From the NCBI RefSeq assembly GCF_030643825.1, contig NZ_CP101717.1:2170001-2234000 (forward strand): a stretch of DNA of 64,000 bases, written 5' to 3'. Position 1 is the first letter of the stretch; every line of letters starts with the position of its first letter. This document shows positions 28,314 through 56,804 of the stretch, piece by piece. The notes under the pieces are model-generated. The model did no database searches. It was given only the letters and a program-made list of their open reading frames with translations, and was not told the origin of the DNA. The position numbers and the translations under genes were made by a program. The stretch is from Salinispirillum sp. LH 10-3-1. Lineage in GTDB: Bacteria; Pseudomonadota; Gammaproteobacteria; Pseudomonadales; Natronospirillaceae.

Positions 28314-28465
28314 ATACCCTCTGTAGAGTTTAGACACAATCCCTGTCATTTCCAGCGCTAAGCCGCGGATTTACTGGGGTTGTCCGATCAAAGGCACTGC
28401 GTAACGGCAGTAAGAGTGGCAAGTGACTGCCGCTCGCTATGGCAAAAAGAAGCCGGAGACAAGAG

Positions 28466-30573: not shown

Positions 30574-30625
30574 ACACCCGCCGTTGATTGGCGGGTATGC
30601 TCATACAGAAAAGCACCCGCCCTAC
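30574..30625 (-). repeat. Class A-like REP overlapping the fliD stop codon
   Basis: ACCCGCC...GGCGGGTATGC...GCACCCGCCCTAC forms a branched set of complementary arms. On the minus strand the GTAGGG head contains the fliD stop TAG (30622-30624). Confidence 0.75.
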
Positions 30626-33600
30626 TTCTTATTGGTCAGCATCGAATTCATGATGTCGAACTGCTGCTGCAAGAACGACTCAGTGCTGTTCAATCGGGAA
30701 ATGATCAAGTCATTAAACAAGAACTGTGACTTCAAACGCTGCTCCTGTGCGGCAATTCGAGTCTCCAGCCGAGCTTTCTCTTCATTGATCAAGTCCATTT
30801 CCTTATCCAAGCCTGCTAAACGCGTCTGTACCGTTCCACCAGACTTCAACAGGCCAGAAAACAGATTGCCCAGTTGCTCAAACACACCGCTCACATAGTT
30901 AACTGTACCGCGTGACCCTAACTGCCCACCCAACACACGAAGCTGAATACCAGCAGCAGGATCTTTAGAGCCCGAAGCGTCTTTGCCGTCCGTCGTCGCT
31001 GACGTAGGCGACAAGCCAGTCACCGCAGACAACGCAGGGTCCATTGAGTTGATACGCACCTTGGAGTTCACACCTGTCGATACCGAAAAAATACCGAAGG
31101 TATTGGTATTGGGATCGTACTGCACATCCACCGCCTTACCCGCCGATGCCAATGCACTGTCGTTATTAATAGCCCGCTTCATTTCATCTGCCAAAGCGCG
31201 GCCCGTGGCATAGGCGGTCTCGGTCAAATTAATTTCACCCGAGGCCACACCATCAATAGTGACGCGAATGGTATTGCTGGCTGAGTCCAAGCCCACCGCA
31301 CTGGAGAAATCAAAACCTGGCGAACCCAGAATGTACCCATTGGTCGCCGCCTGCGCGCCGCTGCCGGCGGTTAGCACCTGGCCGTTACCGGTCGCACGGA
31401 TACCATTGATGGTTCCCTGCACATCCTTACCCATGGCGACTTCGTTTTCTGAGCCGTCTGACAGGCTAAAGCCTAATTGACTGGTCGCCGGGTTAGACAC
31501 GAAAGCAAAGGATACGTTCGTGGAATTATCGAACGAAATGTTGAATCGGCCACGGCCTTGCTCGTCTTTTTCGTAGGTCACGGTCGATTGTGAATCAAAA
31601 CCCTGCACTGAACCCAACTCAAACCCGAATGCATCGCGGCCCAGTATATTCGGGCCTGCCGCGGCCAAACCTAACGAGGCAGCAGCGCCGGCATCGGCGG
31701 AGACGACTTCAAGAGACGCTAAAGCGCCAAAGGTGGCGTTGGTTTTCGCGCCGTTTTTAGAGCGTGTTTCAAAGACTATCTGGTCATTCTCGTCCAAGCG
31801 CGCGACCACATCGCCGGCGGTGAAGTTACCTCCGCCACCGGCGTTCGCCAACCCAATGTTCAGACGCTGCTGAATATACGCCAAGGTATCTTCAGCGGTT
31901 CCTGCACTGAGGTCTTCAGTGAGCGACACATCAATGTTGACGCCATCAACGCGGAACGTGAAGTTAGCTGGGTCGGCTGAAAAATCGATGCCCGTCGTGA
32001 TGGCATTGCCCGGCGTGGTCATATCACCACGACCGTCAGACAACATGGTCAACACTTCGGAGCTGCCCTTCGCTAGCGTTTCTAAAGCCAAACCACCCGC
32101 TGAATTGATGGCCTTGACATCACCCGCTGCCAATCCACCTGCCACTAGAGCATTATCAATCGCTGTTTGGACGCTGTCTAAGTTGTCGGTGCCGTTGGCA
32201 TCAACATCCACAGTGAACGACTGACCGTTGTATTCAAAGGTGAATCCGGCCGGCCGAGCATCAAAGTTAATAGCCGTTCCAATAGGCCGAGTACCAGGGG
32301 TGGTAATCGCGCCAACGGCAGCGCCCTCCACCGTTGGGTCAGAGTTAATGGCTGCTTGAATAGCGGCAGCCAAGGCTTCCGGTGTTTCATAGATACCCGC
32401 AGGTACGTCGATAATACCGGAGTTCACTTCAATGTAGCGGTTGTCGTAACTGAGCTGGAACTGCACGCCAGTGCCAATGCTTACACCAGAATTGGCATCA
32501 CCCTGCGCGCTCTCCAACCCCAGTACATCGTTGCTGCCCGTTACATTCACGTTGGCCAGCTCAATGGTCTGCGGTGCGGCGTCTATCGGAGAACTGAACA
32601 CTAAACGGTTCGATGAATTGAACTGTGCCGTCACCTGTCCGGCTAGCCCCGCGGCATTCAACTGCGCGTTGATGTACGACAGCATGTCGTTACGCGAGCG
32701 CTCTTCTACCACATTGCCATTGATGTCCAACACGTTCGACATATCTTGGTCGAGTGTAATATTGACGGGTGCACCGCCGTTCAGAATCAAGTCAAAAGAA
32801 ACCGTATTACTGGCAAAATTAAAGCTGTCTTTCTCGAACACCTCACGCGAACCAGGGATGGTGGAGGCTGAGAAAGCCAGGTCGTTCAGCGTATTGTAAA
32901 ATTGGCCACTCACACCGCCTTGACCAGGCAAGGTCAGACCTAAGGTGTTTGCAATATTGGCATCGGCACCCACCAAGGACACCTGCGAACTGCTACCAAA
33001 CCGACTGGACGTAATCTCAATGCTGCTGGTGGCTTCGTTAAAGCCCACTGTGACACTGCGCGAACGGCCTAATAACGTCGAATTGTTGTTGATGGAATTT
33101 TGAATCATCAACACCAGGTCGTCTATGTTGTCATAAGTACCTTGCGTCAAGTCTACAGTTGCCGTGGTCCCATCCACGTTAATACGGAAGGAATCGTTAG
33201 ACCCACCAATAATAACCGGATTCCCCGCCGTCGGCTCGGTGATCGGCCGCCCTTTCATTTTGGCCTGAGTCGCTAGCTGCGTAATCTCAACAGCGTATTC
33301 ACCTGGCTTGGTATCAGCGCTCTTGGCAATGTAATTGATCAAACCATCGTTTGCCACCGTACGGTTGGCAAACAAACCGGTTACTGAATCTATCGAATTC
33401 TGAAAAGCCTGCTCCAGTTTATCGACATTGAGTGCCAGCTTATAGTTGTCTGTCCTATCGGTGAATATTCCGATATCAGCCAATGAACGATACTGCGAAT
33501 TTTCTAGGCCCGATACAATCTGTGTTAACGCACTGCGCACCTGGTTTTGTACCGTACGTAAAGTGGAGTCGCCCAGCAACAAACCGCCCTGCGGATCATC

Positions 33601-34539
33601 TGGACTGAATTTGGTCACCTCAGAATAGACTTCACGATAGAAGTTATAGGCGTCGATGAACTCTTCAGTTTTTTCGACCACGCCCGAGGTATCGCGGCTG
33701 ATGTTCAAGTTAACCGTACTGCCGGCCGTTGCTGAATTCAGGTTGATGGTCACGCCGCGAATGACTTCGGTCAGCTGGTTAGACCGCGACGTGATCGCCA
33801 GACCGTTAACCGTCAATTCAGCATCGGCTGCTTTTTGCGTCATCAGCATGTTGTTGTTCGGATCATTTTGCGTTTCGTTGTACGCCAAGGCTTGCAAACC
33901 GGCATCACCGGCCACGGTGATCTCCATAGCATTGTCCAAACCCGCTTCCTTAGAGCTCAACAACAAGCGAAAACCGGTACCGTCGTTCACCAGCGAGGCT
34001 TGCACGCCCATGTTCGCAGCGTTGATGGCGTCACGAACGCCACCCAGTGTATTGTTGGTCGAATTAAGGTCCAGTGTGAATTCTCGCCCCGCACTGTTTT
34101 GCTCGAAGCCTTGAATGTTATTGCTGCCGTCGTAATCAAAGGTACCGAAACGAAACGTCAGCGTACCTGTACCGACGGTATCGGTAACAGAATTGTAGCG
34201 CGGTGATGCCACCGTGTGAGATTGCGCGATGGAGTCAACAGCGATCGAATAGTTACCCACCTCTGCAGTGGACGACGTGGTTGCGGTAACAGCACTGGCA
34301 TTGCTGGAGGTCGCCTTGGTTTGGCGAATATTGGTCGCGCTAGACAGAGCTCGTGCAGCCACTTCCAAACTGCTCAAGGCACTCTTAACTTCACCGTAAG
34401 CAGTGATCTGTGCTTCTACCTTGGCTGTTTTGAACTCTAAGCGCTTATCAGTAGCTTCCCGTTCCGCCGCAATGATCTGCTCCGCAAGATCTGCGGTCAG
34501 TAATCCCGAACCGATACCTAAAGACTGAATGCTCGCCAT
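30622..34539 (-). CDS. fliD: Giant filament cap protein FliD
   Basis: Cap at the filament tip that folds incoming flagellin. The N-terminal FliD domain (about 8-110) begins IQSLGIGSGLLTADLAEQII. Residues 240-400 are the first half of the FliD_C domain (LTVNGLAITSRSNQLTEVI ... ADIGIFTDRTDN). The second half (GTVNYVSGVFEQL ... EEKARLETRIAAQEQRLKSQF ... FDIMNSML) only resumes near residue 1210. The ~800 residues between them contain about six repeats of a beta-rich module with a central helix (near 450-525, 580-670, 692-743, 765-835, 860-950 and 1088-1175). Typical FliD has 450-700 residues; this has 1305. Perfect sigma-28 promoter upstream. Confidence 0.95.
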   Translation of the reverse strand: MASIQSLGIGSGLLTADLAEQIIAAEREATDKRLEFKTAKVEAQITAYGEVKSALSSLEVAARALSSATNIRQTKATSSNASAVTATTSSTAEVGNYSIAVDSIAQSHTVASPRYNSVTDTVGTGTLTFRFGTFDYDGSNNIQGFEQNSAGREFTLDLNSTNNTLGGVRDAINAANMGVQASLVNDGTGFRLLLSSKEAGLDNAMEITVAGDAGLQALAYNETQNDPNNNMLMTQKAADAELTVNGLAITSRSNQLTEVIRGVTINLNSATAGSTVNLNISRDTSGVVEKTEEFIDAYNFYREVYSEVTKFSPDDPQGGLLLGDSTLRTVQNQVRSALTQIVSGLENSQYRSLADIGIFTDRTDNYKLALNVDKLEQAFQNSIDSVTGLFANRTVANDGLINYIAKSADTKPGEYAVEITQLATQAKMKGRPITEPTAGNPVIIGGSNDSFRINVDGTTATVDLTQGTYDNIDDLVLMIQNSINNNSTLLGRSRSVTVGFNEATSSIEITSSRFGSSSQVSLVGADANIANTLGLTLPGQGGVSGQFYNTLNDLAFSASTIPGSREVFEKDSFNFASNTVSFDLILNGGAPVNITLDQDMSNVLDINGNVVEERSRNDMLSYINAQLNAAGLAGQVTAQFNSSNRLVFSSPIDAAPQTIELANVNVTGSNDVLGLESAQGDANSGVSIGTGVQFQLSYDNRYIEVNSGIIDVPAGIYETPEALAAAIQAAINSDPTVEGAAVGAITTPGTRPIGTAINFDARPAGFTFEYNGQSFTVDVDANGTDNLDSVQTAIDNALVAGGLAAGDVKAINSAGGLALETLAKGSSEVLTMLSDGRGDMTTPGNAITTGIDFSADPANFTFRVDGVNIDVSLTEDLSAGTAEDTLAYIQQRLNIGLANAGGGGNFTAGDVVARLDENDQIVFETRSKNGAKTNATFGALASLEVVSADAGAAASLGLAAAGPNILGRDAFGFELGSVQGFDSQSTVTYEKDEQGRGRFNISFDNSTNVSFAFVSNPATSQLGFSLSDGSENEVAMGKDVQGTINGIRATGNGQVLTAGSGAQAATNGYILGSPGFDFSSAVGLDSASNTIRVTIDGVASGEINLTETAYATGRALADEMKRAINNDSALASAGKAVDVQYDPNTNTFGIFSVSTGVNSKVRINSMDPALSAVTGLSPTSATTDGKDASGSKDPAAGIQLRVLGGQLGSRGTVNYVSGVFEQLGNLFSGLLKSGGTVQTRLAGLDKEMDLINEEKARLETRIAAQEQRLKSQFLFNDLIISRLNSTESFLQQQFDIMNSMLTNKK

Positions 34540-41410: not shown

Positions 41411-44400
41411 TTATCTAAAGGCGCCTAGCAGGGAGTTAAAGATTTCCTGTGCGACGCGTATCATTTGGGCGTTGGCATTGTATGCCTGCTCAAAGCGCAC
41501 AAGTCGTGCCGCTTCTTCGTCTAAATTCACGCCCGACACCTGTTGCCAAGCTGCCATCGTTTGGTCAAGCGAAACACGCGCGGTGTCGGTGTTGATCTGC
41601 GCTTGCCGCGTTGACAAACCGATTTGCTGAATCAGTTGCGAGTAGGCGTCGTTAAAATTCAACCCACCGTCTCGGCCGTTCAGCAATTTTGCGGTTTGCA
41701 AGTCGATCATCCGCTCCGAGTTCCGGTTATCGGCACTCGGATCTTTATTATAGCCAATTTCAAAGCGGTCACCGGCTACGGGCCGCCCGTCAATTTGGAA
41801 CTGATAACCCATATACGTAGGCTGCGCATTCGGCGAGCCCTGGAAAAGATTACCAAACGGCGGCTCAGTGGTCATGGTGATGCCATCGTCCATTACCACG
41901 TCGACTTGACCGCCCATGGTCATTTTTTGGCTACCCGTGCCGCCTTGCCCTTCCATTTTCATGACGACTTTGAAGCTGATATTACCACGCTCATCGATAG
42001 ACACATCGACTCGGCCTGGCGCGTCGGCGCCATTGAGCCACGGGTCGTTGCGCTTGATGCGCTCTTGACTGGCTAGCTCAGCCTCAATCTTTTGCGCAAT
42101 ACCGAGCAACATATCGTCGGCGTCTGCATAGTTATCGGTCAATTCTATGGAAGCTTTATCCCCATAGGGTGTCGTGAATTCGTAAAGGTAGGGGCCTCTG
42201 TCCGAGAAATCGAAGCCTCTTGACTGAGTTAACAAGCCTCGCGTGTCAGCCCCGACGGAGTCGAGGAAAACAGTTTGTCCGTTACTGACTTCAAAGCTGT
42301 CACCCCTTGCATTGGCAACGTCTTGAGGGCGATCACCCTTCATTTCAATGCGAATATCATCACCATCGACCGAAGTGATCTTGACCGAGAAACCATCACT
42401 TTTTGCGGTAATGCCTGCATCTTGCAGGGCAAAACTGTTGTTGATTCGGTTTGCAATGAAATCAGCAGTCAGAGGGGACGGTACCTCTTTTATAAATCCT
42501 TCAGAAAAAATCCCCTGAATATCACCCAGTTCCTCACCCGGCATGGTGATATCAACGCCATTGATGTACACCTCAAAAGGCACTGGTGGGTCATAGGGCG
42601 GCGTAGCGTCACGGAATTTACTCAATTCAACTTCAGTGAATGCCCGCGCGGTTACACCAGGTACTCCATTTAATTCAGACGCTACCTGCTTGGCGCTCGC
42701 GCCGCCGGGCGTGGAGAGACGCTCTAATAACTGAGGTTTCCCGTCAGGCCCAATGGTCTCGAACGTAATACGCTCAGGGTTAAAACCGTTGTTCGGCCAG
42801 ACATCTGGCTGATTAGCCGCCTGTGTAAACGGTACCTTGGGTAACCAGCCGGAATAGCTGGTGACCTGAGTTTCACCTGGATTATTGGAGAACATATCGT
42901 TGGCAATGCCTGGCGTGAACGGCAGGTTGCGCATGGGTGGCTGCAGTTGGCGCGGCCGCAGTGGATCGGTGTTATCCAGCAAGGTATATCGGTCCGCACT
43001 CTCAAACACCACCAAGATAGGCGGTGACAATTCGCCAGGCACTGCAAAGGCCTTAGTATCGGCGTCCAGCAACACTCCGTTATCGATGGAACCGGTGCCT
43101 TGGTTAGCCAAACTGCTGCCACCCGTAATAGGCATGGCAAAAGCCAATTCGGCAGGCAGAGTCAACTTGAGGTCAAAATCCTTCGCCGCGCCGCGCGTGG
43201 GCTGAAATACGTAGCGGTCGCCCTGCTGAAAGGTACCCGCGACCATCTTCACTTCAAGGCCATCAAAGGATACCGAGGCTGGCCGCTCACCGGAGATCAC
43301 GCCACTGCTGACCACTTCGCCGTCGGTTAATCGTACGACTTCATAGTTGGCGTCACGCGGGCCGGTAAAGCGCATTTCATAGTCACTGACCGAGAGCTGA
43401 CCAATGTCGCGAATATAGACTTCGACTACGCGATCGTTCGGCCGCGCATTGTTGGCGTTGTATTGTACCCGAGAACGCGCCAGTGCTTGGTCGTTGTAGT
43501 CGGTGAACATGTCAGAGCCAAAAGCCCCGAACAGGTTAATACCTAACGCTTGCTGTTCGTTGAACGAAGAGGCGACGCCGACGGCAACCCGACCTAAATA
43601 ATTCAGCGCTTCGTCCAGGTTCTCATTGCGGAACTTGAGTGTACCGCCCAGTTGACCACCATTGATGCTGTCGGTGATCACCAAGCGTTCTTTCTTACTC
43701 ACAAAAACGATGTCGCTGCGACTGGGGTCTTTAACGCCAGGCTGGGCTTCGAGCCGATTGGCTTCAAAACCAATGACCAAGGCCTGGCCTGAGCCGATGT
43801 AAACATCGTAGTTGCCGTCGGCCACGACCACATCAACTGCCACAATTTCCGATAGCTGACGAACCATTTCGTCTCGCTTGTCGAGCAGGTCGTTCGGTGG
43901 CGCTCTCCGAGAGTCCCCTTGAGCGTTTTGAATATCCTGGTTGAGCTGGGCAATGCCACTCGCCAGTGTATTTACTTCGCCGGAGTAGCTGCGCAACTGA
44001 TCATTGATCAACTTGTTCTGCTGGTCCATACGGTCGTAAATCAGATTAAAACGGTCTTGCAATACGCTAGCAGCCCCTATAAATGCTTCCCGCGCAGGAA
44101 TAAAGCCCGGGCTGTCGGAAGCGGTCTGCAACGCGGAGAAGAAGTCGGACAACACTGGGCCGATTCCGGTACGCTCGTCACCGAGTAACTTGTTGATCTG
44201 ATCAATGTTGTCACGATAGGTTTCATAGCCTTTGTACAGCTGCGTATCCGTGCGCATCTGCTCGGTCGTGAAGGCATCGTGCAGGCGTCGAATCGTGGTG
44301 ACATCCACACCAGAACCGATGTAGCCAACCCCCATGAACTGCGAGTTCGCGGAGTTCAGAATGACTTCCTGACGACTGTACCCAGGCGTGTTGGCATTGG

Positions 44401-44476
44401 AAATGTTGTTACCAATCACTTCCAACTGCTTCTGTGATGCGTTCAAGCCGGTCAGGGCTATGTTGAGCAGACTCAT
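41411..44476 (-). CDS. flgK: Enlarged hook-filament junction protein FlgK
   Basis: First junction protein. The N-terminus (LNIALTGLNASQKQLEVIGNNISNANTPGYSRQE) and C-terminus (SGVNLDEEAARLVRFEQAYNANAQMI) are the standard HAP1 ends. Length is 1021 residues against about 550-680. The extra mass lies between about 330 and 920 and contains at least one or two modules like those in FlgE and FliD (for example around 632-715: FEVYINGVDI, TADFIANRINNSF, GITAKSDGFSVKI; and around 760-845). It starts 3 bp after flgJ and is probably transcribed from the flgJ promoter. Confidence 0.95.
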   Translation of the reverse strand: MSLLNIALTGLNASQKQLEVIGNNISNANTPGYSRQEVILNSANSQFMGVGYIGSGVDVTTIRRLHDAFTTEQMRTDTQLYKGYETYRDNIDQINKLLGDERTGIGPVLSDFFSALQTASDSPGFIPAREAFIGAASVLQDRFNLIYDRMDQQNKLINDQLRSYSGEVNTLASGIAQLNQDIQNAQGDSRRAPPNDLLDKRDEMVRQLSEIVAVDVVVADGNYDVYIGSGQALVIGFEANRLEAQPGVKDPSRSDIVFVSKKERLVITDSINGGQLGGTLKFRNENLDEALNYLGRVAVGVASSFNEQQALGINLFGAFGSDMFTDYNDQALARSRVQYNANNARPNDRVVEVYIRDIGQLSVSDYEMRFTGPRDANYEVVRLTDGEVVSSGVISGERPASVSFDGLEVKMVAGTFQQGDRYVFQPTRGAAKDFDLKLTLPAELAFAMPITGGSSLANQGTGSIDNGVLLDADTKAFAVPGELSPPILVVFESADRYTLLDNTDPLRPRQLQPPMRNLPFTPGIANDMFSNNPGETQVTSYSGWLPKVPFTQAANQPDVWPNNGFNPERITFETIGPDGKPQLLERLSTPGGASAKQVASELNGVPGVTARAFTEVELSKFRDATPPYDPPVPFEVYINGVDITMPGEELGDIQGIFSEGFIKEVPSPLTADFIANRINNSFALQDAGITAKSDGFSVKITSVDGDDIRIEMKGDRPQDVANARGDSFEVSNGQTVFLDSVGADTRGLLTQSRGFDFSDRGPYLYEFTTPYGDKASIELTDNYADADDMLLGIAQKIEAELASQERIKRNDPWLNGADAPGRVDVSIDERGNISFKVVMKMEGQGGTGSQKMTMGGQVDVVMDDGITMTTEPPFGNLFQGSPNAQPTYMGYQFQIDGRPVAGDRFEIGYNKDPSADNRNSERMIDLQTAKLLNGRDGGLNFNDAYSQLIQQIGLSTRQAQINTDTARVSLDQTMAAWQQVSGVNLDEEAARLVRFEQAYNANAQMIRVAQEIFNSLLGAFR

Positions 44477-45726: not shown

Positions 45727-46824
45727 TTAAATAACAATCAACTCGGCGTTCAAAGCCCCAGCCTGTTTCATGGCTTCTAAAATTGCCATTAAATCACTCG
45801 GCGAAGCCCCCACCTCGTTCACTGCTGCCACTACGTCTTCTAACGTAATGGTGGGGCCAAACAAGAACATGCGGTTTTCTTCTTCTTCAATAGCAATCTC
45901 TGTATCCGGCACTACGGCAGTCTCGCCATCAGTAAAGGGTTCAGGCTGCGCTACTTGCAAAGTATTATCAATGGTTACCGTCAGGTTGCCGTGCGTGATC
46001 GCCACTGGTGTAATCCGCACATGCTGCCCGATGACAATGGTACCAGTACGCGAGTTAACAATGACCTTGGCTCGCCCTTCGCCCTGTTGCACTTCGATGT
46101 TTTCAAGCACCGACAAGAAGGTTACGCGTTGGTTGGAATCACGCGGCGCGGTCACTCGTACGCTACCGGCATCCAGCGCATAAGCACTACCCGGCCCCAA
46201 CATATCGTTGATGGCTTCTGCCATCCGCATGGCGGTCGTAAAGTCCGCACGGTGCAGGTTAAACGTTAGAAAGTCACCTTCATTGAAACCACTACGCACT
46301 TCGCGTTCAACGATCGCGCCGCTGGGAATGCGTCCTGCACTGGGGACATTGACCGTGATACTGGAACCATCGGCACCCTGAGCACCAAAACCACCGACTA
46401 ACAAATTACCTTGAGCAACCGCATAAACATTTCCATCAGCACCCTTCAGAGGTGCCAGCAGCAAACTGCCACCGCGCAACGATCCGGCATTACCCAAGGA
46501 CGACACAGTGACATCAATGGCTTGCCCTGGACGCGCAAACGCTGGCAGCGTGGCATGAATGGATACGGCGGCGACGTTACGCAGACGCGGGTCCACACCT
46601 TCTGGAATGGTGATACCAAACTGAGCCATCATATTGCTGAAGGTTTGGTTGGTGAACGGGGCTCGGTCACCGGTGCCGTCCAACCCCACGACGAGACCAT
46701 AACCCACTAATTGGTTATCACGTACACCTGCCACGGACGCAATGTCCTTGATACGGTCAGCCATTGCCGGTGCGGCAGCGACGACAGCCAGTAAAGAAGT
46801 CAGTATCAGTGCGGAAACACGCAT
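45727..46824 (-). CDS. flgI: Flagellar P-ring protein FlgI
   Basis: Periplasmic protein forming the bushing in the peptidoglycan. A signal peptide occupies residues 1-22 ([20 protein letters not shown]), followed directly by the mature start [31 protein letters not shown]. The conserved ending is [18 protein letters not shown]. Length 365 is normal. It is separated from flgH by an insertion carrying mntA-hepT and an exported protein, and a sigma-54-like element lies 46-61 bp upstream. Confidence 0.97.
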
Positions 46825-47004: not shown

Positions 47005-47430
47005 ATGTTGAAAGATAGCAAGGCCATGCAGAACCCTCACCTTGAACGCCTGAAAAGCATTCTGACGCTACCGGATACACTCGACTTTCTGGTACTTGTT
47101 GGCAGCCGGGCACTCGATACAGCGCAGCAAACCAGCGACTGGGATATCGCTTTTCAGTTTTCACCTGAAGCGGGTACGATACATTCAAACCCTATGTGTT
47201 ATCTGGCGATGGTTGAAGCGCTTCGAGAAGACCTGGCAATTGCTTTGGCAGTGGACGACAGCTCGATTGACCTGATCGATGCTGCCAATTCCAATCTGGC
47301 CATGAAAGCCGTGATTGCCGAGGAAGGGTTGGTGATTACCGGAGACGAGAAATTGCCCTGGTATCATTTTCTAACGCGAACCTGGCGCGAACTGGAAGAC
47401 TGGTATTGGGAGCAAGAACATGCGGCTTGA
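47005..47430 (+). CDS. mntA: MntA-type antitoxin nucleotidyltransferase
   Basis: Minimal nucleotidyltransferase of the type VII HepT/MntA toxin-antitoxin systems, in which MntA neutralises HepT by transferring AMP to a tyrosine. The 141 residues hold the family signature GSx10DxD exactly: VGSRALDTAQQTSDWDIAF. The third acidic residue is probably in SSIDLIDA. It overlaps hepT by 11 bp on the same strand. The start is uncertain (ATG 47005 or 47026; neither has a clear ribosome site). Orientation opposes the surrounding flagellar genes. Confidence 0.88.
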   Translation: MLKDSKAMQNPHLERLKSILTLPDTLDFLVLVGSRALDTAQQTSDWDIAFQFSPEAGTIHSNPMCYLAMVEALREDLAIALAVDDSSIDLIDAANSNLAMKAVIAEEGLVITGDEKLPWYHFLTRTWRELEDWYWEQEHAA

Positions 47431-47836
47431 TGTTTATCTGGCAGAGACGCATCTTATTGCAGAGCAACAAGGAAGTATTCTTGATGATACAGCAGAGCGT
47501 TTAAGGCAGGGAGCCACCCTGACACCACTGGAACAGAATGGTGTGTTACATGCACTGCAGGTATTGGTGGAAAATTCTATTGGCAAGGCAAAAAATACGC
47601 TTAAAAGCTATGGCAAGCCAGTGCCTGTTTCCGCTTATGATGCCATCAAAGAAGTAGGCAAGCTCGAACAATGGGATGCTCAACAATTGGAGCGTTGGCG
47701 AAGTATCATTGGTTTGCGCAATAAAATCGTTCACGAGTACATGAACATCGACATGGACACTATTCAGGTGCTGGTGCGGGAAAGGCACTATAATCCAATC
47801 ATTACTTACCTTCTGAGCCCTATTGTTAAAAAGTAA
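47420..47836 (+). CDS. hepT: HEPN-domain toxin HepT
   Basis: HEPN-family RNase toxin (DUF86 type) of 138 residues, all helical. The catalytic and regulatory motif RX4HXY is present as RNKIVHEY near residues 95-105; its Tyr is the residue AMPylated by MntA in the characterised Shewanella pair. It overlaps mntA by 11 bp, so the two are translationally coupled. There is no truncation. Its presence inside the flgH-flgI junction suggests acquisition with the neighbouring exported-protein gene. Confidence 0.88.
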   Translation: MRLDVYLAETHLIAEQQGSILDDTAERLRQGATLTPLEQNGVLHALQVLVENSIGKAKNTLKSYGKPVPVSAYDAIKEVGKLEQWDAQQLERWRSIIGLRNKIVHEYMNIDMDTIQVLVRERHYNPIITYLLSPIVKK

Positions 47837-47892: not shown

Positions 47893-48498
47893 TTACTCAG
47901 GACTGAAGCGTCGCCAGGTTTTCCATGCCTCTTCATTTGAGGATATGGAGCCAATGGCTTCTCCGCAGATGGCGCGTGTTTCACGCGGATTTTGTGTGGC
48001 GATAAAACGCAAACAATCTTCCGAAACAGCCCCATGGTCTTCGTACATTAACATGCCGCCGCTGTGCCACCCCATTGGTGTGGCAACCGATTCCGGATTG
48101 TGCGCGGTGCCGCGCCCGTAGGTTTGTTGCCATAAAGGCTGTATTGCAAGATCTTCATCCAGCAACACTTCAGTGCGCAACACTGCCATGCTTTGCGGCC
48201 CACCAAACTCAAAGGCTTCAACCATAAGGAATTGCCCATCGTCGCTCAGACTCCAACGCCCGAGCCGATAGAACTCAGACATCCAGACGGTTCTGCGTTC
48301 ACCGCCGGAATCAACCCACCAAAGCTGACCGTTTAACGCTTCGATAGCACAGAGGCGTTCACCTAAACCGACGGATACACAGCGGACTGGGGTCTGGACC
48401 ACCTCTCCGTTATTGGCCCAAACGGACGTTGTGAACAAAGCCAGAATCCCAGACAGCACAAAAGCCCTGAAAAGGGCTGGCGTGGTCACTATTTTCAT
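47893..48498 (-). CDS. Exported protein of unknown function
   Basis: 201 residues with a signal peptide (about 1-28, cleavage after SVWA). The mature part has paired cysteines (C38 in VRCVS and C46 in LCAIE), several Trp/Tyr-rich strands (LWWVDSGGERRTVWM) and two more cysteines near the C-terminus (EDCLRF, AICGEA). I do not recognise a family. AGAGG lies 5 nt before the ATG. It is between hepT and flgH, within the REP-flanked insert, and faces the same way as the flagellar genes. Confidence 0.75.
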   Translation of the reverse strand: MKIVTTPALFRAFVLSGILALFTTSVWANNGEVVQTPVRCVSVGLGERLCAIEALNGQLWWVDSGGERRTVWMSEFYRLGRWSLSDDGQFLMVEAFEFGGPQSMAVLRTEVLLDEDLAIQPLWQQTYGRGTAHNPESVATPMGWHSGGMLMYEDHGAVSEDCLRFIATQNPRETRAICGEAIGSISSNEEAWKTWRRFSPE

Positions 48499-48606: not shown

Positions 48607-49299
48607 TTAAAAGGGAAACCAACCACTGTTCAGGGCGCGCGTCAACCAGCCTTGCCGCGTAGAATCCGCAAGCTCACCGGTACCGCTGTAGGCAATACGG
48701 GCATCGGCGAGTTTACTGGACGCCACGGTATTGTCCAAATTGATGTCTTCCGGACGAATCAAACCGGTAACACGCAGGTATTCTTGTCCGCGCGTCAGGG
48801 TAATCCATTTTTCACCCTGAATGCGCAATACACCATTGGGGTACACTTCGGCCACCGTCACACTGATCGCGCCTTCCAGGCGGTTACTTTGGTTTGCTTG
48901 ACCGCTACCGGAAAAGCTACGACTGCCGTTGACGTTGGCAGACAGTGCATTATTGAGCACTCGCAACTCATTGCCGCCAATCACTGGCGCACGCAAATCG
49001 GCGTCAGACGACTTACTGGAATTCGCTGCATTGGACTTCTGCGATACTGTGCGCTCATTCAGAATAACGGTGATGACATCGCCAACCCGATGGGCGTTCT
49101 TATCACCGTACAACTGCACGCCGTATGCCTGCGCAAAGATCGACCCATTGGCGGGCGGCGGCGTCATCATATTTTGTACCGGCACAGGCGCCCACGCTGG
49201 CTCATCCGGCCGTTCATCGAACTTGATTTCGCCCGTCGACGTACAGCCAACGACCGTCAGTACGACAAAAGGCAGCAATAAAATACGCTTAATTTTCAT
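48607..49299 (-). CDS. flgH: Flagellar L-ring lipoprotein FlgH
   Basis: Outer-membrane ring lipoprotein through which the rod passes. The signal sequence ends in the lipobox VVGC (Cys near residue 19). Family motifs include GSIFAQAYGVQLYGDKNAHRVGDVITV-like segments (NGSIFAQAY, VGDVITVILNERTVS) and IRPEDINLDNTVASSKLADARI. I use the ATG at 49297-49299, with GGAGG 8 nt upstream, so the length is 230. Standard neighbour of flgG; its usual partner flgI lies beyond the insert. Confidence 0.97.
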   Translation of the reverse strand: MKIKRILLLPFVVLTVVGCTSTGEIKFDERPDEPAWAPVPVQNMMTPPPANGSIFAQAYGVQLYGDKNAHRVGDVITVILNERTVSQKSNAANSSKSSDADLRAPVIGGNELRVLNNALSANVNGSRSFSGSGQANQSNRLEGAISVTVAEVYPNGVLRIQGEKWITLTRGQEYLRVTGLIRPEDINLDNTVASSKLADARIAYSGTGELADSTRQGWLTRALNSGWFPF

Positions 49300-49323
49300 G
49301 GGTTTACCCTCCATTCACAGACC

Positions 49324-50124: not shown

Positions 50125-50868
50125 TCAGCTCATCTGGAGCAGACGTTGTGATGCTTCGGAGGCCTGCTCGGCGCTCTTCATCATCTTAATTTGCATTTCA
50201 TACTGACGACTCAGCGACAGAATGTTTACGAGTTCGTTGACCGCTTTGACGTTCGACCCTTCAAGAAAGCCTGAACGCACCTGCACCAGCGGATCAGCAC
50301 CTAATACGGCGTCACCTTCACGCGGCCGGAACAGACCATCGGTGCCTTTGGCCATATTCTGTAAGTCAGGGTTCACTAACTTCAACGCATCAACCTGTGC
50401 CAGCTCTTGTGGGCCGTCACCGGGCGCACGAATGGTAATGACGCCGTCATTACCGATATTGATTTGCTGGAATGGCGGCAGTACCAAAGGGCCACCTTCG
50501 CCGACCACTTGTAGGCCATCGCCATTGAAGACCTGCCCAGCGGCATCCACGATCAAGTCACCACGGCGGGTATACGCCTCTTCGCCGTTCTGATCGATCA
50601 CTGCAAGGAAACCATCACCCGCTATTGCTACATCCATGTCACGACTGGTGCTCATCAGCGGGCCGTCGTTAAAGTCGGTTGCTGGGCGCTCGGACATGCT
50701 GTACGCACGCGACGGATAATGCTCGCCGAATACTGGCATGGCGCGCGCTTGCTCCCAGTCGGCCCGAAAGCCTGTGGTACTGGCGTTCGCCAAGTTATTG
50801 GAATGCGCCGCCTGCGCCAGCATGTTCTGCTTGGCACCGCTCATAGCAATGTATATGGCACGATCCAT
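50125..50868 (-). CDS. flgF: Proximal rod protein FlgF
   Basis: Rod subunit of normal length (247). N-terminus DRAIYIAMSGAKQNMLAQAAHSNNLANASTTGFR and C-terminal helix LEGSNVKAVNELVNILSLSRQYEMQIKMMKSAEQ are the rod/hook family ends. GAGGGG precedes the ATG. It is first gene of the flgFGH unit, with a sigma-54 promoter 42 bp upstream and a terminator for flgE just beyond that. Confidence 0.97.
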   Translation of the reverse strand: MDRAIYIAMSGAKQNMLAQAAHSNNLANASTTGFRADWEQARAMPVFGEHYPSRAYSMSERPATDFNDGPLMSTSRDMDVAIAGDGFLAVIDQNGEEAYTRRGDLIVDAAGQVFNGDGLQVVGEGGPLVLPPFQQINIGNDGVITIRAPGDGPQELAQVDALKLVNPDLQNMAKGTDGLFRPREGDAVLGADPLVQVRSGFLEGSNVKAVNELVNILSLSRQYEMQIKMMKSAEQASEASQRLLQMS

Positions 50869-51138: not shown

Positions 51139-54100
51139 TTAACGCAGGTTAATGATGGTCTGCGTTATCGCACTGGCTGTTTCAATGGTCTTCGCACTGG
51201 CCTGGAAGTTCCGCTGTGCGATGATCAAATGAACCAGTTGTTCAGACAGATCCACGTTCGAGTCTTCCAAAGCGCTCGAGCGAATCTTACCCAGAGTACC
51301 CGTGCCCGGGACACCGATGGTTGCATCACCCGACTCAAAGGACTCCGTCCATTCAGTGAAACCAATCGGACTCAAACCCTCTGGGTTACGGAAGGAGGCA
51401 ACTGCTACTTGACCAATGACCTGTGATTGACCGTTGGTATAGCGCGCAGCGATTTCACCCTGATCGTTGATCTCCAAGTCTTTCAGCTGACCCGATGCGT
51501 AACCGTCTTGCGAGAAATTCTCGCGTGAGAATGGTCCACCAAACTGCGTTACACGCTCAAAATTGATCTCGAAGTTCGAGCTTACGTTCGGCACAGGAAT
51601 CGGCAGTTGGCCGCCTTGTGCTTGTGGACGTGGGCCGTAGCCACCCGTTGCACCGCCTTCGTCGTTACGTGGCAACCAGTTAGAGATCAACCATGACCCA
51701 CTGGCTTCTTTGTTCAACGTACCGTCGGCGTTGAAGAACATTTTGAACTGTGCCTGCGTGGGCACTTGGTTCTCAGGGAACGGCAAGCTCAAGTCTGGGT
51801 CACCGATATCGCGACCATCAATCTGGGCATACACGGTCCAACTGTTCAAGTCGAACGGGCGGTTTGGATCATCTTGATCCTTTACGAAGAACATCTGCAA
51901 GACGTGCTGATTACCCAGTGAATCATAAATGGTCAACGACGAGGTCTCGTTGTACGTCTCAGGGTTCTTAGGATCAAAAGCATTGATCACAAAGTCTTCG
52001 AAGTCGTCGGCGACCAAGCCGTTAAACAAACCGGTGACCCGAGGGTCTGGCTGACGCATGCTGTAGTCTTTGTTCAAGATGATCTCAACCGTACCACCCA
52101 CCAGGGCAGTGGTTTCGCCATCTGGCACAGCACCCAAGGTAATTGGGGCAGTGCCTTCTTCACCCAGCAAGGTTAGGCGGTCTGCTACACGCGGCGACTC
52201 AATCTGTACCGTAATATCTTGCCCTGTACCTGATGTCAGAATGAGGTCACCGCTATCGCCGTCCAAGCTAGCGGTAATGCCCGACAAGGACGTTTGCTGG
52301 TACTGGTTGATCTCTTCAACCATCGCCAAGAAGTTGTTCGAGGTGATGACTTGACCGTTGATGAAGACATTCATGTCCCCGGCGTTCGAATAATCCGAAC
52401 TTAGGAAACGCAGTTGCGTGCTGGCGGTCGCGTTGACGCCCGGTAATGCAGACAGCTGAGTCGCTGTTTGCGAAGCCGTTTGTTTCTCATCAATGGTTAC
52501 GATGCGCTCTTCGCCATCGGGATCCGTAAGGATAAACGATTGTTCAGGGTAACCATTGTTCACCTTAGGCTGCCCCAGCTCCAGATAGTCACTGTTTAGG
52601 CGATCAATCTGCAACATGGCATTGAGTTCTTCTACCGTAATATCCTCACCAATGGCCTGCACATTAGAAATAGATATCTGTGAAGGCTCACCAGCACGTG
52701 TCGCAACCAATTGGAGTTGCTTGGTGCCATCTGGGTTTAAGGTCACCTGCGCCTTCACGCCGATGTAATCGGCCTCCGGCACATCGGCCAGTTCGCGATT
52801 GATGGCTTGGGCTAACTGCTCAATACTACGGATATTCTCATCAATCGAGATTTCTACCGAGCCGGAACGATTATCTGGGTCTGGCAGTGGCACTGCTAGA
52901 TTGATGCGGAACGAATTCCGACGATCAACCGGATCGATTGCGGCAGTCGTGGTTTGTGACGAGTGGCCGATGGCCGCCAAGGAGCCAGTATTACCTGGTA
53001 CATTGGTCACGTTCAGCGAGTTAGGGAAACCGCCCAAGGCTGTCAAGGCAAACACAATACGGCCATTGACTTGAGAGGCTTCGACTTTACCAGCTAACTG
53101 TCCTACGGCGTTAATCTGCGCATTGATTGAGGCGACCACTTCATCTGCGTTCGTATACTCACCTGCAGGGATAACAATGGTGCCAACACCAGGGTTTTCA
53201 CCGCCAACACTCACGCGCAACTGGTTGTTCGCGGGGGTATCGCTGGTACCTGGTGTAGAGGTAGGCAGGGGCACACTGTTCGACGTCAGACCCAGCGTAT
53301 CGGCGTTGAATCCTACAGCTGTACTACCATTATCTACGACAGTAATGGGATTCGAATTGTTCGCCGTATTAGCAAACAGCAAATTAGTACCGTCCAAACC
53401 TGCGGTTACGTTACCGCTTAGCGTGGGGTTAGCGAACAACGCATTGTTGACGGCATTCGCCAAGTCTGCCCGTGAGGCAAAACCAGTACCCGGCACAGGA
53501 ATAGAGATAGTGCTGTCAATACTGCCCGTCAGTACACGAATATCCAACGTGCGACCGAGAACGCCACCTTGGTCACCAATAGAGGTGGATGGCAGAGACA
53601 AGGAACCACGTAGGGTACTGACCGTTCCAGACTCAAAGTTATTGAAAGTCAACTGAGTGGTATTATTGCCCTGCACCTGCACTGGTGTGCCTGGGATTGT
53701 CGTCAGGTCAATGCTACCGCCACCCGCAAACAAATCACTACCGGCAATAGGTGCAGTCACTAAGGGTGCATTTGGACCGACATCTTCAGTGTCGATGCCC
53801 AATAAACCCGTCAAGGTGCCTACGTTGTCCGTGATACGTACAATGGACGTACCATCAGAAGCAAACGGACCGTCCGTTGTGACCTGCAAATAACCTGGGC
53901 GATCCGGGTCTTCTTGCACACGCACACGACCAGCAAGCGTAGAATCATTATTCACCGCTGCCTGGAATGACTCGATCAGGTCACTCATGCTGCGAATTTG
54001 TCCACCGATGGGGAAGGGTTCCAACGTTATAGTGGTGGAAATACCATCATTAATGTTTGGACCCTGCAACGTAATATCAAGTGTCTGAGGTGATGCAGGA

Positions 54101-55881
54101 GGCAACTGACTGAATACCGAAGGCGCTGCAGATGCGCCGTCCCCAGTGCGCAAGAAGAGGTCTTCTGCGATGTTGCTACCACCAATGTCATTCACCGAAA
54201 GCACACGGGTACCTGAGGTCGATACAAACTGCACAACGTTATCCGGTAACTGCTCGGGATCCGCCTGCACAATAATCCGACCACCCAAGATGGAATTATC
54301 GTCGATAGACGTTTGGAAAGCATCCAGCATGGCACCAAAGGTCGCAAAGTTGGCGCTACCGGGAAACGGTGCAATTGAAACTGCTAGGGGTGCGCCACCG
54401 TTCAACAACGGATCTTGAATCTGTATTTGAATAGTATCAGTAGGTGACGGTACGTTCTGGAATACACGCTCTGATACCGCACCACCGGTCAAACCAAGTT
54501 GGGTTCCCGATGTTCCCGGCCCTACATCTTGAATATTAGTGATACGAATATCTGGGTCTGTAGAAATCAACTCAATGCCATTTCCGTTAGGAGTCAGCTG
54601 AAACTCCAGACCTGCGGGTAGTGGTCCACTCAACGTGACAGAGCCTACACCGTTATTCAAATCATTGATCAGCGTTGCTTGGTCCGTGTACTGAGTACCA
54701 GCCGCAAACGTCGCTGTAATTGTTGTCGGCACACCAGAATCTTGGAAGTTTATCTCAATGTCCTGGGCATTTGGCAGAGGTTCAAACAGTAGCTCAGGGC
54801 CTGACGCCGCACCGCCTACACCACCATAACCAATGGCATCGATTAAGTTACCGGTTCCGCCTACGATCCCCTGAAATTCAGTACCATTAGTCGAGAAGAA
54901 GCGAAGTTGATCTGGCAGTGTATCCAAATGCACAAATACCCTACCCGCAGTAATCGGGTTTGAATTCAATGCCGTTTCAATCAGGGTACGCGCTTGCGCA
55001 GGCGTCGTTGGCTGCGCGGTCAATGGCCCCAAGGTAACGACCGTTGGCACAGCTGATCCAGGCAGTTGAATAGACAGGTCTATCGTGTCACTGGCACCCA
55101 CTAACGGTGCCAACGGATCAGCCATAGCAGCATCAGGATTTAAGCTATAGAACTGCGGAGTACTGATTCCCGTAGAATAAATGCCCACCGGCTCTACCGC
55201 ATCACCCGCCGTATAGATATCCGCCAAGTTCAAGCTACCGGTCACCGACGACGCCGTTCCCGCCGTAGTCGGTACACCCACGGTACTGAGTACGGTTTGC
55301 GTTGCTACGGGTGAACCCACCTGAACCTGACCAATCGCCAGGCCATTGGTACGCGTAATACTGCCCAACTGCGCCAAAATAGGCGCCCCTGCAGGTACGT
55401 TTACACCCGCATTCACTTTATTCGTGCCGCGCGGCGGTTGACTGGCAGTATCAATACGCAAGTCTTGCAGAATACCATCCACAATACCGCTGGCGCTGGC
55501 ACCAAAACCCTGTAAGCGGGCATTTTGATTCGATGTGATATAACCGTTTTTATCGACACCGAATATACCGGAGCGCGTATAAGTTACTTCACCGTTTGGA
55601 TATTGCGTAACAAAGAAACCACTTCCGTCGATGGCCATATCCAGCACACTGCCGGTTTGGGTAATATTACCCTGCGTCATCTTCTGGCCAATATTAGCGA
55701 TATTCACCCCGCCGCCGACCGGGTTGCGGCCCGTGCCCAGCATGCTGGACGTATAGGCATCGCCAAACTCGGTACGGCTGGCTTTAAAACCGGTCGTCGA
55801 GGCATTCGCAATGTTATTACCAGTGACCTTGAGGTCTTTATTCGCTGCGGCCAAGCCGCTCAAGCCTGTGCTGAAACTCAT
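51139..55881 (-). CDS. flgE: Giant flagellar hook protein FlgE
   Basis: Hook subunit of 1580 residues; the family is usually about 400-450, with larger ones below 1000. Ends are standard: SFSTGLSGLAAANKDLKVT and NIANASTTGFK at the N-terminus; SSALEDSNVDLSEQLVHLII near residue 1535 at the C-terminus. FlgE_D2-like sequence (SSLTIYDSLGNQHVLQMFFV) lies around 1314-1420. Between about 260 and 1245 are seven or eight modules of 80-100 residues (near 264, 370, 480, 598, 776, 885, 988, 1112), each with paired strands, a helix, a G(R/K)V strand and an L.F.S-like strand. The frame is uninterrupted over 4.7 kb, so it is not a pseudogene. GAGG lies 8 nt before the ATG. Confidence 0.96.
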   Translation of the reverse strand: MSFSTGLSGLAAANKDLKVTGNNIANASTTGFKASRTEFGDAYTSSMLGTGRNPVGGGVNIANIGQKMTQGNITQTGSVLDMAIDGSGFFVTQYPNGEVTYTRSGIFGVDKNGYITSNQNARLQGFGASASGIVDGILQDLRIDTASQPPRGTNKVNAGVNVPAGAPILAQLGSITRTNGLAIGQVQVGSPVATQTVLSTVGVPTTAGTASSVTGSLNLADIYTAGDAVEPVGIYSTGISTPQFYSLNPDAAMADPLAPLVGASDTIDLSIQLPGSAVPTVVTLGPLTAQPTTPAQARTLIETALNSNPITAGRVFVHLDTLPDQLRFFSTNGTEFQGIVGGTGNLIDAIGYGGVGGAASGPELLFEPLPNAQDIEINFQDSGVPTTITATFAAGTQYTDQATLINDLNNGVGSVTLSGPLPAGLEFQLTPNGNGIELISTDPDIRITNIQDVGPGTSGTQLGLTGGAVSERVFQNVPSPTDTIQIQIQDPLLNGGAPLAVSIAPFPGSANFATFGAMLDAFQTSIDDNSILGGRIIVQADPEQLPDNVVQFVSTSGTRVLSVNDIGGSNIAEDLFLRTGDGASAAPSVFSQLPPASPQTLDITLQGPNINDGISTTITLEPFPIGGQIRSMSDLIESFQAAVNNDSTLAGRVRVQEDPDRPGYLQVTTDGPFASDGTSIVRITDNVGTLTGLLGIDTEDVGPNAPLVTAPIAGSDLFAGGGSIDLTTIPGTPVQVQGNNTTQLTFNNFESGTVSTLRGSLSLPSTSIGDQGGVLGRTLDIRVLTGSIDSTISIPVPGTGFASRADLANAVNNALFANPTLSGNVTAGLDGTNLLFANTANNSNPITVVDNGSTAVGFNADTLGLTSNSVPLPTSTPGTSDTPANNQLRVSVGGENPGVGTIVIPAGEYTNADEVVASINAQINAVGQLAGKVEASQVNGRIVFALTALGGFPNSLNVTNVPGNTGSLAAIGHSSQTTTAAIDPVDRRNSFRINLAVPLPDPDNRSGSVEISIDENIRSIEQLAQAINRELADVPEADYIGVKAQVTLNPDGTKQLQLVATRAGEPSQISISNVQAIGEDITVEELNAMLQIDRLNSDYLELGQPKVNNGYPEQSFILTDPDGEERIVTIDEKQTASQTATQLSALPGVNATASTQLRFLSSDYSNAGDMNVFINGQVITSNNFLAMVEEINQYQQTSLSGITASLDGDSGDLILTSGTGQDITVQIESPRVADRLTLLGEEGTAPITLGAVPDGETTALVGGTVEIILNKDYSMRQPDPRVTGLFNGLVADDFEDFVINAFDPKNPETYNETSSLTIYDSLGNQHVLQMFFVKDQDDPNRPFDLNSWTVYAQIDGRDIGDPDLSLPFPENQVPTQAQFKMFFNADGTLNKEASGSWLISNWLPRNDEGGATGGYGPRPQAQGGQLPIPVPNVSSNFEINFERVTQFGGPFSRENFSQDGYASGQLKDLEINDQGEIAARYTNGQSQVIGQVAVASFRNPEGLSPIGFTEWTESFESGDATIGVPGTGTLGKIRSSALEDSNVDLSEQLVHLIIAQRNFQASAKTIETASAITQTIINLR

Positions 55882-56051: not shown

Positions 56052-56804
56052 TTAAAATACGTGATTAATACGCGTTACTTTATCCAGCGTCGTATCTTTT
56101 CCGTTCTCAAGATTCAGTTTTACGGTGTTATCCGCCAATATGGAAACACTGTCGACTCGCGAACTCATGGACACCGCTTGCGCCATATTCTGTCCGGCTA
56201 CGTTGCCCATAATGCGGAAGCGGTAATTTCCTTCCGGATGCGGAAAAGGATTGCCGTCTTCGTCAGTCTCAAATTTGTCGTAGTCTATGTCGGCCCACTT
56301 GCCATTCACTTCCAGATCCAAGCCGTTCCATTTGAACGCCAGCTCACCGGATGGCTGTGGCCCCAAGGCAACAGATTCAATCACCTGGCCGAACTCGTCT
56401 TCAATCTGCAAGACTAAGTTGTCGGCACCGGGCGTAATATTGGCCGTGCCAAATACCAAGTCGCCGTAGCGCAATGCACTTTCTTGCTGGCCGTCAACCG
56501 TCACCGCACCACCGACCAAGCTTGACGCTTGCAGTGCTTGGCTCGACTTCATGGCCGTGGCCAGCTTATCAAAGCCACCGCTCATATTGGTGATACCTTC
56601 AACCGTTGAGAATTGCGCCAATTGCGCAATGAACTCGCCGTTTTCTTTCGGCTCCAACGGGTTTTGGTTGGTCAACTGGGCGATCATCAACTCCAGGAAC
56701 TGATCCTTACCCAACTCGCCACGGTCCGCTTTAGGCGGTGCCTTCTTGTCAATGCTGTACTGGTCGAGTGGATTACTCGCGCCAACTTGATTGATGTTAG
56801 ACAT
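56052..56804 (-). CDS. flgD: Hook assembly scaffold FlgD
   Basis: Hook cap that is discarded when the hook is finished. The N-terminal FlgD domain has LGKDQFLELMIAQLTNQNPLEPKENGEFIAQLAQFS; the C-terminal Fn3/tudor-like part spans about 110-240. Length 250 is ordinary, although it must cap a hook made of subunits over three times normal size. It is followed by a hairpin and flgE. Confidence 0.96.
   Translation of the reverse strand: MSNINQVGASNPLDQYSIDKKAPPKADRGELGKDQFLELMIAQLTNQNPLEPKENGEFIAQLAQFSTVEGITNMSGGFDKLATAMKSSQALQASSLVGGAVTVDGQQESALRYGDLVFGTANITPGADNLVLQIEDEFGQVIESVALGPQPSGELAFKWNGLDLEVNGKWADIDYDKFETDEDGNPFPHPEGNYRFRIMGNVAGQNMAQAVSMSSRVDSVSILADNTVKLNLENGKDTTLDKVTRINHVF

Follow-up and report, generated by a model that had tools for sequence, protein, structure and literature searches.

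A 1580-residue flagellar hook protein with a modular outer insert in Salinispirillum sp. LH 10-3-1 and its giant relatives

In a 2016 paper, the 865-residue FlgE of Campylobacter jejuni was called one of the longest hook proteins, with large domains placed in the middle of D2 (PMC5069557). A further paper gives a hook of 280 A for C. jejuni, whose FlgE carries two extra domains, versus 180 A for Salmonella, and reports that C. jejuni without D3/D4 was very poorly motile, with stubs on more than 90% of cells and many broken flagella (PMC5097172). Added outer domains can therefore reinforce a hook. For the filament, giant flagellins give a thickness of at least 30 nm in related bacteria according to a 2018 paper, which asks whether other flagellar components are correspondingly large and names FlgE once, for a control alignment (PMC6248924).

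The window analysed here, a stretch of 64,000 nucleotides (positions 2,170,001 to 2,234,000 of contig NZ_CP101717.1), comes from Salinispirillum sp. LH 10-3-1, whose genome is one contig of 3.47 Mb. A giant flgE lies in its flg cluster, between flgD (56052-56804) and flgF (50125-50868), and is laid out as follows.

51139 to 55881, minus strand: flgE, giant hook protein of 1580 aa (Pfam, NF004238, selection)
55390 to 55881, minus strand: FlgE residues 1-164, N-terminal D0/D1, probably with the first D2 strand (Pfam Flg_bb_rod and FlgE/F/G D1)
51985 to 55389, minus strand: FlgE residues 165-1299, outer insert (lengths and alignment against relatives, model)
51499 to 51984, minus strand: FlgE residues 1300-1461, D2 (Pfam FlgE_D2, 1e-29)
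51142 to 51498, minus strand: FlgE residues 1462-1580, C-terminal D1/D0 (Pfam Flg_bbr_C)

An earlier note on this DNA had described a FlgE frame open over 4.7 kb with correct D0/D1 ends, and this was confirmed: the gene runs on the minus strand from ATG to stop with 0 internal stops, and Pfam recognised both ends of the 1580-aa product (164 kDa, pI 4.1, Cys-free). The domain order was Flg_bb_rod (residues 5-33), FlgE/F/G D1 (83-140), FlgE_D2 (1301-1461) and Flg_bbr_C (1535-1579), all above cut-off. The NCBIfam FlgE model NF004238 scored 457 bits against a cut-off of 400, and the other FlgE equivalog models each stayed below their own cut-off on this protein. A search of the organism's own genome found one full-length FlgE and four further, partial matches with frames of 251, 265, 265 and 1022 aa. 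Judged from its sequence, the 1580-aa FlgE is a true hook subunit. It combines an ordinary D0/D1/D2 core of about 445 residues with an insert of about 1135 residues (165-1299); the extra residues claimed by the note were thus real, and their number, which it put at about 1000, was too low. At almost four times the Salmonella length (1580 versus about 402 residues), the protein is conserved, which suggests that it is still in use.

Across four close pairs the insert gave dN/dS values of 0.030, 0.060, 0.125 and 0.061, which are rough because insert dS exceeded 1.5 in two pairs. The core gave 0.013-0.055 in three pairs, dS being saturated in the fourth. These ratios indicate purifying selection on the insert. 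That the giant frame is an artefact of assembly, frame or annotation, the possibility of mis-assembly having been raised in the note, is exceedingly improbable, with nothing found in its favour: the genome is a single contig with one open frame, complete homologues occur in 18 other family genomes, and the insert, with dN/dS of 0.03-0.125, shows purifying selection.

Matches to the 1580-aa protein were found in 20 of the 21 other genomes of the family (f1), and 18 of the 21 encode a complete giant FlgE of 1213-1587 aa. The giant FlgE of G012 lies in two contig pieces, the insert of G008 is located in a different protein, and G002 gave no match. When the f1 proteins were cut at residues 185-1299, the insert measured 747 to 1121 residues and the core 461-467 aa, with 480 aa in G007 because its start was not trimmed. 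Named members with a giant FlgE were Natronospirillum, Saccharospirillum, Reinekea, Salinibius and a Gynuella MAG, and homologous FlgE proteins of about 1200 aa were found in Thalassolituus, Oceanobacter and a Bacterioplanes MAG.

FlgE_D2 was present in 177 of the 244 genomes of the order sample. The FlgE open frames of the 140 listed order genomes had a median of 557 aa (quartiles 441 and 676); 20 genomes had a FlgE of at least 900 aa and 19 one of at least 1150 aa, these 19 being divided among f1 (9/9), f217 (8/8), f218 (1/2) and f9 (one). With the D2 domain alone, frames of at least 1215 aa were found in all nine FlgE-bearing f1 genomes and all eight f217 genomes of this sample. Judged from size, f217 is probably the Thalassolituus-type group. 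In the class sample 196 of 369 genomes matched, the largest other frame among the matches listed being 865 aa, and in the phylum sample 297 of 398 matched, with 667 aa as the largest other frame among the matches listed. Across the f1 family and a related group, bacteria of marine or salt-loving kind, FlgE as a rule measures 1200-1590 aa. The note had placed the size far outside the usual range, and the order median bears this out. It had also regarded a FlgE of this size as unusual, which was correct in that the hits listed from the open-licence literature, covered by titles and abstract openings, included no account of such large hook proteins; within f1, however, 1213-1587 aa is routine. 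A survey of lengths, which it had proposed for Oceanospirillales genomes, showed in the order mostly 400-700 aa outside the giant groups, but giants throughout f1 and f217 rather than a singleton. A 990-aa frame with two FlgE_D2 matches (G442:C129:8838-10451) was also observed, in a genome with ten FlgE_D2 matches.

A scan of named genomes with the whole protein gave no match, and one with the insert alignment gave 34 loci. FlgE frames were obtained from 29 of these (two of them fragments), plus one more; L095 was lipoprotein-like, and L108, L115 and L126 were left out of the measurement. In a tree of FlgE cores, from which L034 was excluded because its D2 start could not be located and in which L087 was badly trimmed (1131 residues kept), 29 giants formed one clade (support 100/95) that included the Thalassolituus/Oceanobacter-type proteins, and the window sequence adjoined Natronospirillum (support 100/99). 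Because the insert-based scan supplied the giants, this tree could lack near relatives in which the insert has been lost. The 1194-aa FlgE of G029 is related (40% over 783 positions), and the tree gave it no firm place. The 1162-aa FlgE of G034 (L087:7774-11265) fell outside the giant clade and has its extra part elsewhere in the protein, with no convincing BLAST match between this part and the insert (best E 0.03). It was not counted as kin of the giant clade and represents independent FlgE gigantism.

The insert was modelled with AlphaFold2 (FlgE residues 165-1312, from 30 sequences), which gave a mean pLDDT of 78.1 and a pTM of 0.42, with no lattice. In our own reading of the strand and helix list of the model, a beta-beta-alpha-beta-beta-beta unit recurs about eight to nine times. 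The structure prediction proposed in the note thus revealed repeated modules, close to the seven or eight of 80-100 residues that it had described though slightly more numerous. The following units were assigned from the model and from profiles, A2 being a 30-row alignment.

54814 to 55098, minus strand: M1 (residues 262-356), in A2 only in the window, L093, L094 and the lipoprotein L095
54460 to 54813, minus strand: M2 (357-474), in A2 only in the window, L093, L094 and the lipoprotein L095
54112 to 54444, minus strand: M3 (480-590), in A2 in the window, L093, L094, L095, L098 and L103
53773 to 54093, minus strand: M4 (597-703), in 28 of the 30 A2 rows
53566 to 53772, minus strand: linker region B (704-772), beta-rich
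53296 to 53565, minus strand: M5 (773-862), matching FliD 578-667 at 92%
52930 to 53232, minus strand: M6 (884-984), matching FliD 1087-1133 at 96%
52588 to 52920, minus strand: M7 (988-1098), kin to M6 at 89%
52387 to 52560, minus strand: M8 (1108-1165), matching FlgK 571-619 at 96.5%
52168 to 52392, minus strand: M9 (1164-1238), matching FlgK 628-722 at 93%, with weak Flagellin_IN (E 0.1)

Module profiles were built from rows spanning at least 70% of each module, and the FlgK, FliD and FliC alignments included a few rows from outside the family. Within M1-M6 each of the 15 pairs matched, at 62-99%. M7 matched M6 (89%) and M5 (44%), the other FlgE modules staying below 20%; neither M8 and M9 against the other FlgE modules nor region B against every module gave a profile match of at least 20%. 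Among 260 column-shuffled controls, 0 reached 20% probability. In single-sequence comparison M1-M3 (76%) and M3-M4 (96%) alone stood out, and BLASTP of FlgE against itself found no internal repeats. The profile matches indicate that M1-M6 are mutually homologous, with M7 joined through M6, and duplication therefore produced at least these modules. They also show sequence kinship of some FlgE modules with modules of FliD or FlgK. The M8-M9 matches to FlgK run in the same order, M9 matched family flagellin (FliC) only weakly (40%), and a match between M4 and FliD was absent when rows covering at least 70% of the module were used. Of 30 inserts, 16 matched Pfam Flagellin_IN (PF07196) at E up to 1, with a best value of 2.3e-7; the window insert scored 14.4 bits, under the cut-off of 22.7, and no family attained its cut-off within it. 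Enzyme or adhesin domains in the window insert were set aside, the matches being sub-threshold only.

The modules are unevenly distributed among relatives. Several FlgE proteins of the order, 575-694 aa long, matched the C-terminal part of the window protein, starting at about residue 1103-1151 and running through to its end, which corresponds to M8-M9 plus D2, and the match of the 629-aa FlgE of G039 started at 1287 only. The giant rows add M4-M7, and M4-M9 are common to nearly all rows of the giant clade. M1-M2 were held by the window, Natronospirillum, the Gynuella MAG and the lipoprotein-like protein, and M1-M3 together by the window genome, Natronospirillum and the Gynuella MAG. A separate expansion of about 260 residues was seen at another position in the g2 (Reinekea-type) genomes and G004 (alignment A1).

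Foldseek returned six matches to the insert model at E up to 0.001, all to flagellin or FliD, the best of which (6iwy) superposed badly (rmsd 36 A). By VIA-align, the D2/D3 domains of Pseudomonas aeruginosa FliC (8erm_A) aligned with Z 14.7 over 179 residues at 2.8 A and the FliD D2-D3 domains with Z about 9, the top Z across chains being 15.5. The model indicates that the insert modules are of the Flagellin_IN/flagellin-D2 kind, with the fold of the outer domains of flagellin and FliD. C. jejuni FlgE (5jxl) gave Z 4.0 with an rmsd of 47 A, no common fold emerging; neither the C. jejuni D3/D4 domains nor those of FlgK are prominent among the fold matches, where absence is uninformative. Phage tail-sheath chains gave Z 11-13, and residues ~750-883 of P0001 in the model resemble a domain of contractile phage tail sheaths at these values. 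The likeness to tail sheaths was taken as shared fold and not as origin. A phage origin was set aside: tblastn against phages gave six records, unannotated, with query coverage of 16-26% in the five listed.

The note had placed the insert before a D2-like region, and most of D2 does follow it. In a full-length model of L107, a 1214-aa relative (mean pLDDT 63.8, D0/D1 not resolved), however, solved FlgE D2 domains aligned from residue ~149 and then again at ~919-1160. The first strand of D2 thus appears to precede the insert, a split read from where the alignments end and from residues modelled with low to moderate pLDDT, and the insert would therefore interrupt D2. The model suggests that the insertion site is the one described for C. 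jejuni and that the kind of domain is different.

The window also encodes further flagellar components.

41411 to 44476, minus strand: flgK, enlarged hook-filament junction protein, 1021 aa
35223 to 38153, minus strand: fliC, enlarged flagellin, 976 aa, Flagellin_IN present
30622 to 34539, minus strand: fliD, enlarged filament cap protein, 1305 aa
40044 to 41297, minus strand: flgL, 417 aa, without giant insert
56052 to 56804, minus strand: flgD, hook cap, 250 aa, without giant insert

The note had expected effects on FlgD and FliK function; FlgD (250 aa) carries no giant insert, and the best FliK frames measured 356-763 aa in the family and 582 aa in the window genome. The lineage has enlarged flagellins, and the note had mentioned giant flagellins of marine gammaproteobacteria: a flagellin frame of 748-1248 aa was found in 18 of the 22 family genomes, with six above 1000 aa. 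In the drafts G008, G012 and G014 the flagellin-N frames were short or FlgL-like only, and G002 had none. Two short or additional frames were observed in the same genome outside the window, each with similar frames in other family genomes: a second Flg_hook-domain frame of 631 aa (G000:C1:2019799-2020023, plus strand) and a short flagellin-N frame of 268 aa (G000:C1:2836547-2836921, minus strand).

Lengths were compared across genomes as open frames, hence as upper bounds, with one listed row per genome and the largest listed flagellin. G525 (contig edge), second rows (e.g., the 990-aa frame of G442) and rows beyond those listed, the FlgE of G034 among them, were dropped from the tables, and the 790-aa flagellin of G009 probably runs into a contig end. 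FlgE length correlated with that of FlgK (rho 0.904, 126 genomes; 0.908 over 34 family means; 0.88 without the f1 family), FliD (0.737, 119 genomes; 0.65 over 33 family means) and flagellin (0.612, 98 genomes; 0.59 over 27 family means). These correlations ignore phylogeny, and the genome values overstate independent events because many giants share one origin. In all 19 listed genomes with a FlgE of at least 1150 aa FlgK measured 995-1031 aa; FliD was 951-1355 aa in the 17 with a listed value, and flagellin 736-1295 aa in 17. G014 gave no FliD_N match. The match in size is loose, FlgK staying near 1000 aa while FlgE spans 1194-1593 and flagellin 736-1295 aa. Two genomes with a FlgE of about 820 aa had a FlgK above 1070 aa, G514 had FlgE 949, FlgK 1004 and FliD 574 aa, and G034 had FlgE 1162, FlgK 1152 and flagellin 852 aa but a FliD of ordinary frame (454 aa). 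Genomes with a giant FlgE also have an enlarged FlgK and, mostly, an enlarged FliD and flagellin, a pattern that suggests a joint scaling-up of much of the outer flagellum. The 2018 question, answered by gene length, thus receives a largely positive reply, affirmative for hook and junction and for the most part affirmative for the cap.

A module block was also found in a protein of another kind. In the MAG ALOHA_DT_135 (G008), a 1484-aa ORF that carries FG-GAP repeats and whose start, by eye, resembles that of a lipoprotein (L071:11317-15768, L095, L130) was 41% identical to FlgE 198-1290 over 1116 alignment positions, in one block, and therefore the block can exist away from the hook. In the sequence covered on its flanks, inspection by eye revealed no further flagellar gene; FlgE_D2 was not found in the MAG, whose flgG contig ends just past flgG. 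To arise by chance joining, the ORF would have to be in frame at two junctions; present in one MAG, it is an unconfirmed candidate.

Among the neighbours of the flagellar genes in the window, a type VII toxin-antitoxin-like pair lies at 47005-47836 inside the flg cluster but on its opposite (plus) strand, between flgI (45727-46824, minus strand) and flgH (48607-49314, minus strand). Its MntA-type antitoxin scored 50.6 bits (below the cut-off of 60) and its HepT-type toxin 62 bits (above the cut-off of 60). The same gap holds a 201-aa ORF (47893-48498, minus strand) for which neither Pfam nor NCBIfam gave a match at E up to 0.01. Beside fliD, a 694-aa protein with TPR and methyltransferase parts is encoded at 28439-30523 (plus strand) and is possibly, as a guess, a flagellar modification enzyme.

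We favour, at a probability of about 0.58, the reading that the giant FlgE forms a thick, reinforced hook for a thick filament, and that hook, junction, filament and cap grew in concert, in part by drawing on a shared set of modules. The modules would stack outside D2 as extra outer layers round a standard 11-protofilament hook, and the added contacts between subunits would make the joint stiffer and stronger, and thereby able to drive a thick filament; the four segments would have grown as one mechanical and assembly unit. Hook thickness and stiffness are here inferred. A two-point area-per-residue extrapolation from the 180-A Salmonella and 280-A C. jejuni hooks gave a width of about 357-378 A (36-38 nm) for 1580 residues and about 312-331 A for 1209 residues. 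DSM 24913, a giant-flagellin strain of PMC6248924, encodes a 1209-aa FlgE (L109). The reinforcement in C. jejuni and the filaments of at least 30 nm in related bacteria are the reasons for which the giant hook may be read as the joint of a thick flagellum.

Three other accounts were weighed. The insert might mainly be a surface coat or adhesive array that binds surfaces, particles or cells or shields the hook from phage and grazers, mechanics being secondary. Its acidic, Cys-free and modular composition, its differences between genera and the presence of the module block in the lipoprotein-like FG-GAP protein of a related MAG would suit such a role, but no family attains its cut-off in the window insert, and FlgE size tracks FlgK, FliD and flagellin rather than varying alone; we regard this account as unlikely. 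Somewhat less likely still is simple heritage from one enlarged ancestor, in which FlgE, FlgK, FliD and flagellin grew separately and covary through shared ancestry. The single clade of 29 giants, the pairing of a giant FlgE with an ordinary FliD in G034 and the fact that flagellin covaries least speak for it, whereas the FlgE-FlgK correlation persists without the f1 family (0.88), over 34 family means (0.91) and at intermediate sizes. Neutral or ratchet-like growth, by easy module duplication tolerated outside the hook without benefit, would explain why close genera differ in module number and why two separate expansions occurred at two positions; it is hard to square with an insert dN/dS of 0.03-0.125, with a giant FlgE in 9/9 f1 and 8/8 f217 genomes of the order sample, or with an export cost of about four times more residues per hook subunit, and appears quite improbable.

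Within the preferred reading of a reinforced hook, a wider proposal is put forward only tentatively, namely that the outer flagellum is built from an exchangeable module pool, whose families spread by duplication and transfer between hook, junction, cap and perhaps flagellin, and from which a block can leave the flagellum, as in the lipoprotein-like protein of ALOHA_DT_135. If so, the outer layers of successive segments would go on matching, and the widths of hook, junction and cap would co-evolve by shared parts instead of by separate adaptation. The lengths of about 400, 650, 1210, 1310, 1470 and 1580 aa form a series of hook sizes in nature, suited to studying how far a universal joint tolerates added layers and how an export gate deals with 164-kDa subunits, and cultured strains have been identified for measuring hook width, stiffness and export, among them Thalassolituus maritimus DSM 24913 (FlgE 1209 aa), Saccharospirillum impatiens DSM 12546 (1214 aa), Reinekea blandensis MED297 (1472 aa) and Natronospirillum operosum (1573 aa).

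With the solved FlgE proteins of P. aeruginosa and Salmonella (9wx3, 6k9q), the giants share D2, which in the 1214-aa relative aligned at Z 9.1 over 139 residues (3.9 A) and Z 7.7 over 112 residues (3.0 A), respectively; the Salmonella protein, of about 402 residues, is without such an insert. Parts of the insert have the fold of P. aeruginosa FliC D2/D3 and of FliD D2-D3 (8erm, 8sug, 5h5v, 5xlk; Z about 9 to 15), and M5 and M6 are kin in sequence to FliD modules of the f1 family, but those chains belong to filament or cap proteins of ordinary size and not to hook proteins. The FlgE of C. jejuni (865 aa, D3 and D4) is likewise a hook protein with large extra outer domains; its hook is wider and stronger (PMC5097172), and its extra part amounts to about 386 residues compared with about 1135 in the giant FlgE. 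The giant flagellins of Bermanella and Oleibacter (PMC6248924) come from a related lineage and offer a parallel in their internal module duplication, enlarged outer region and thick polar flagellum, but they build the filament, whereas the giant FlgE belongs to the hook.
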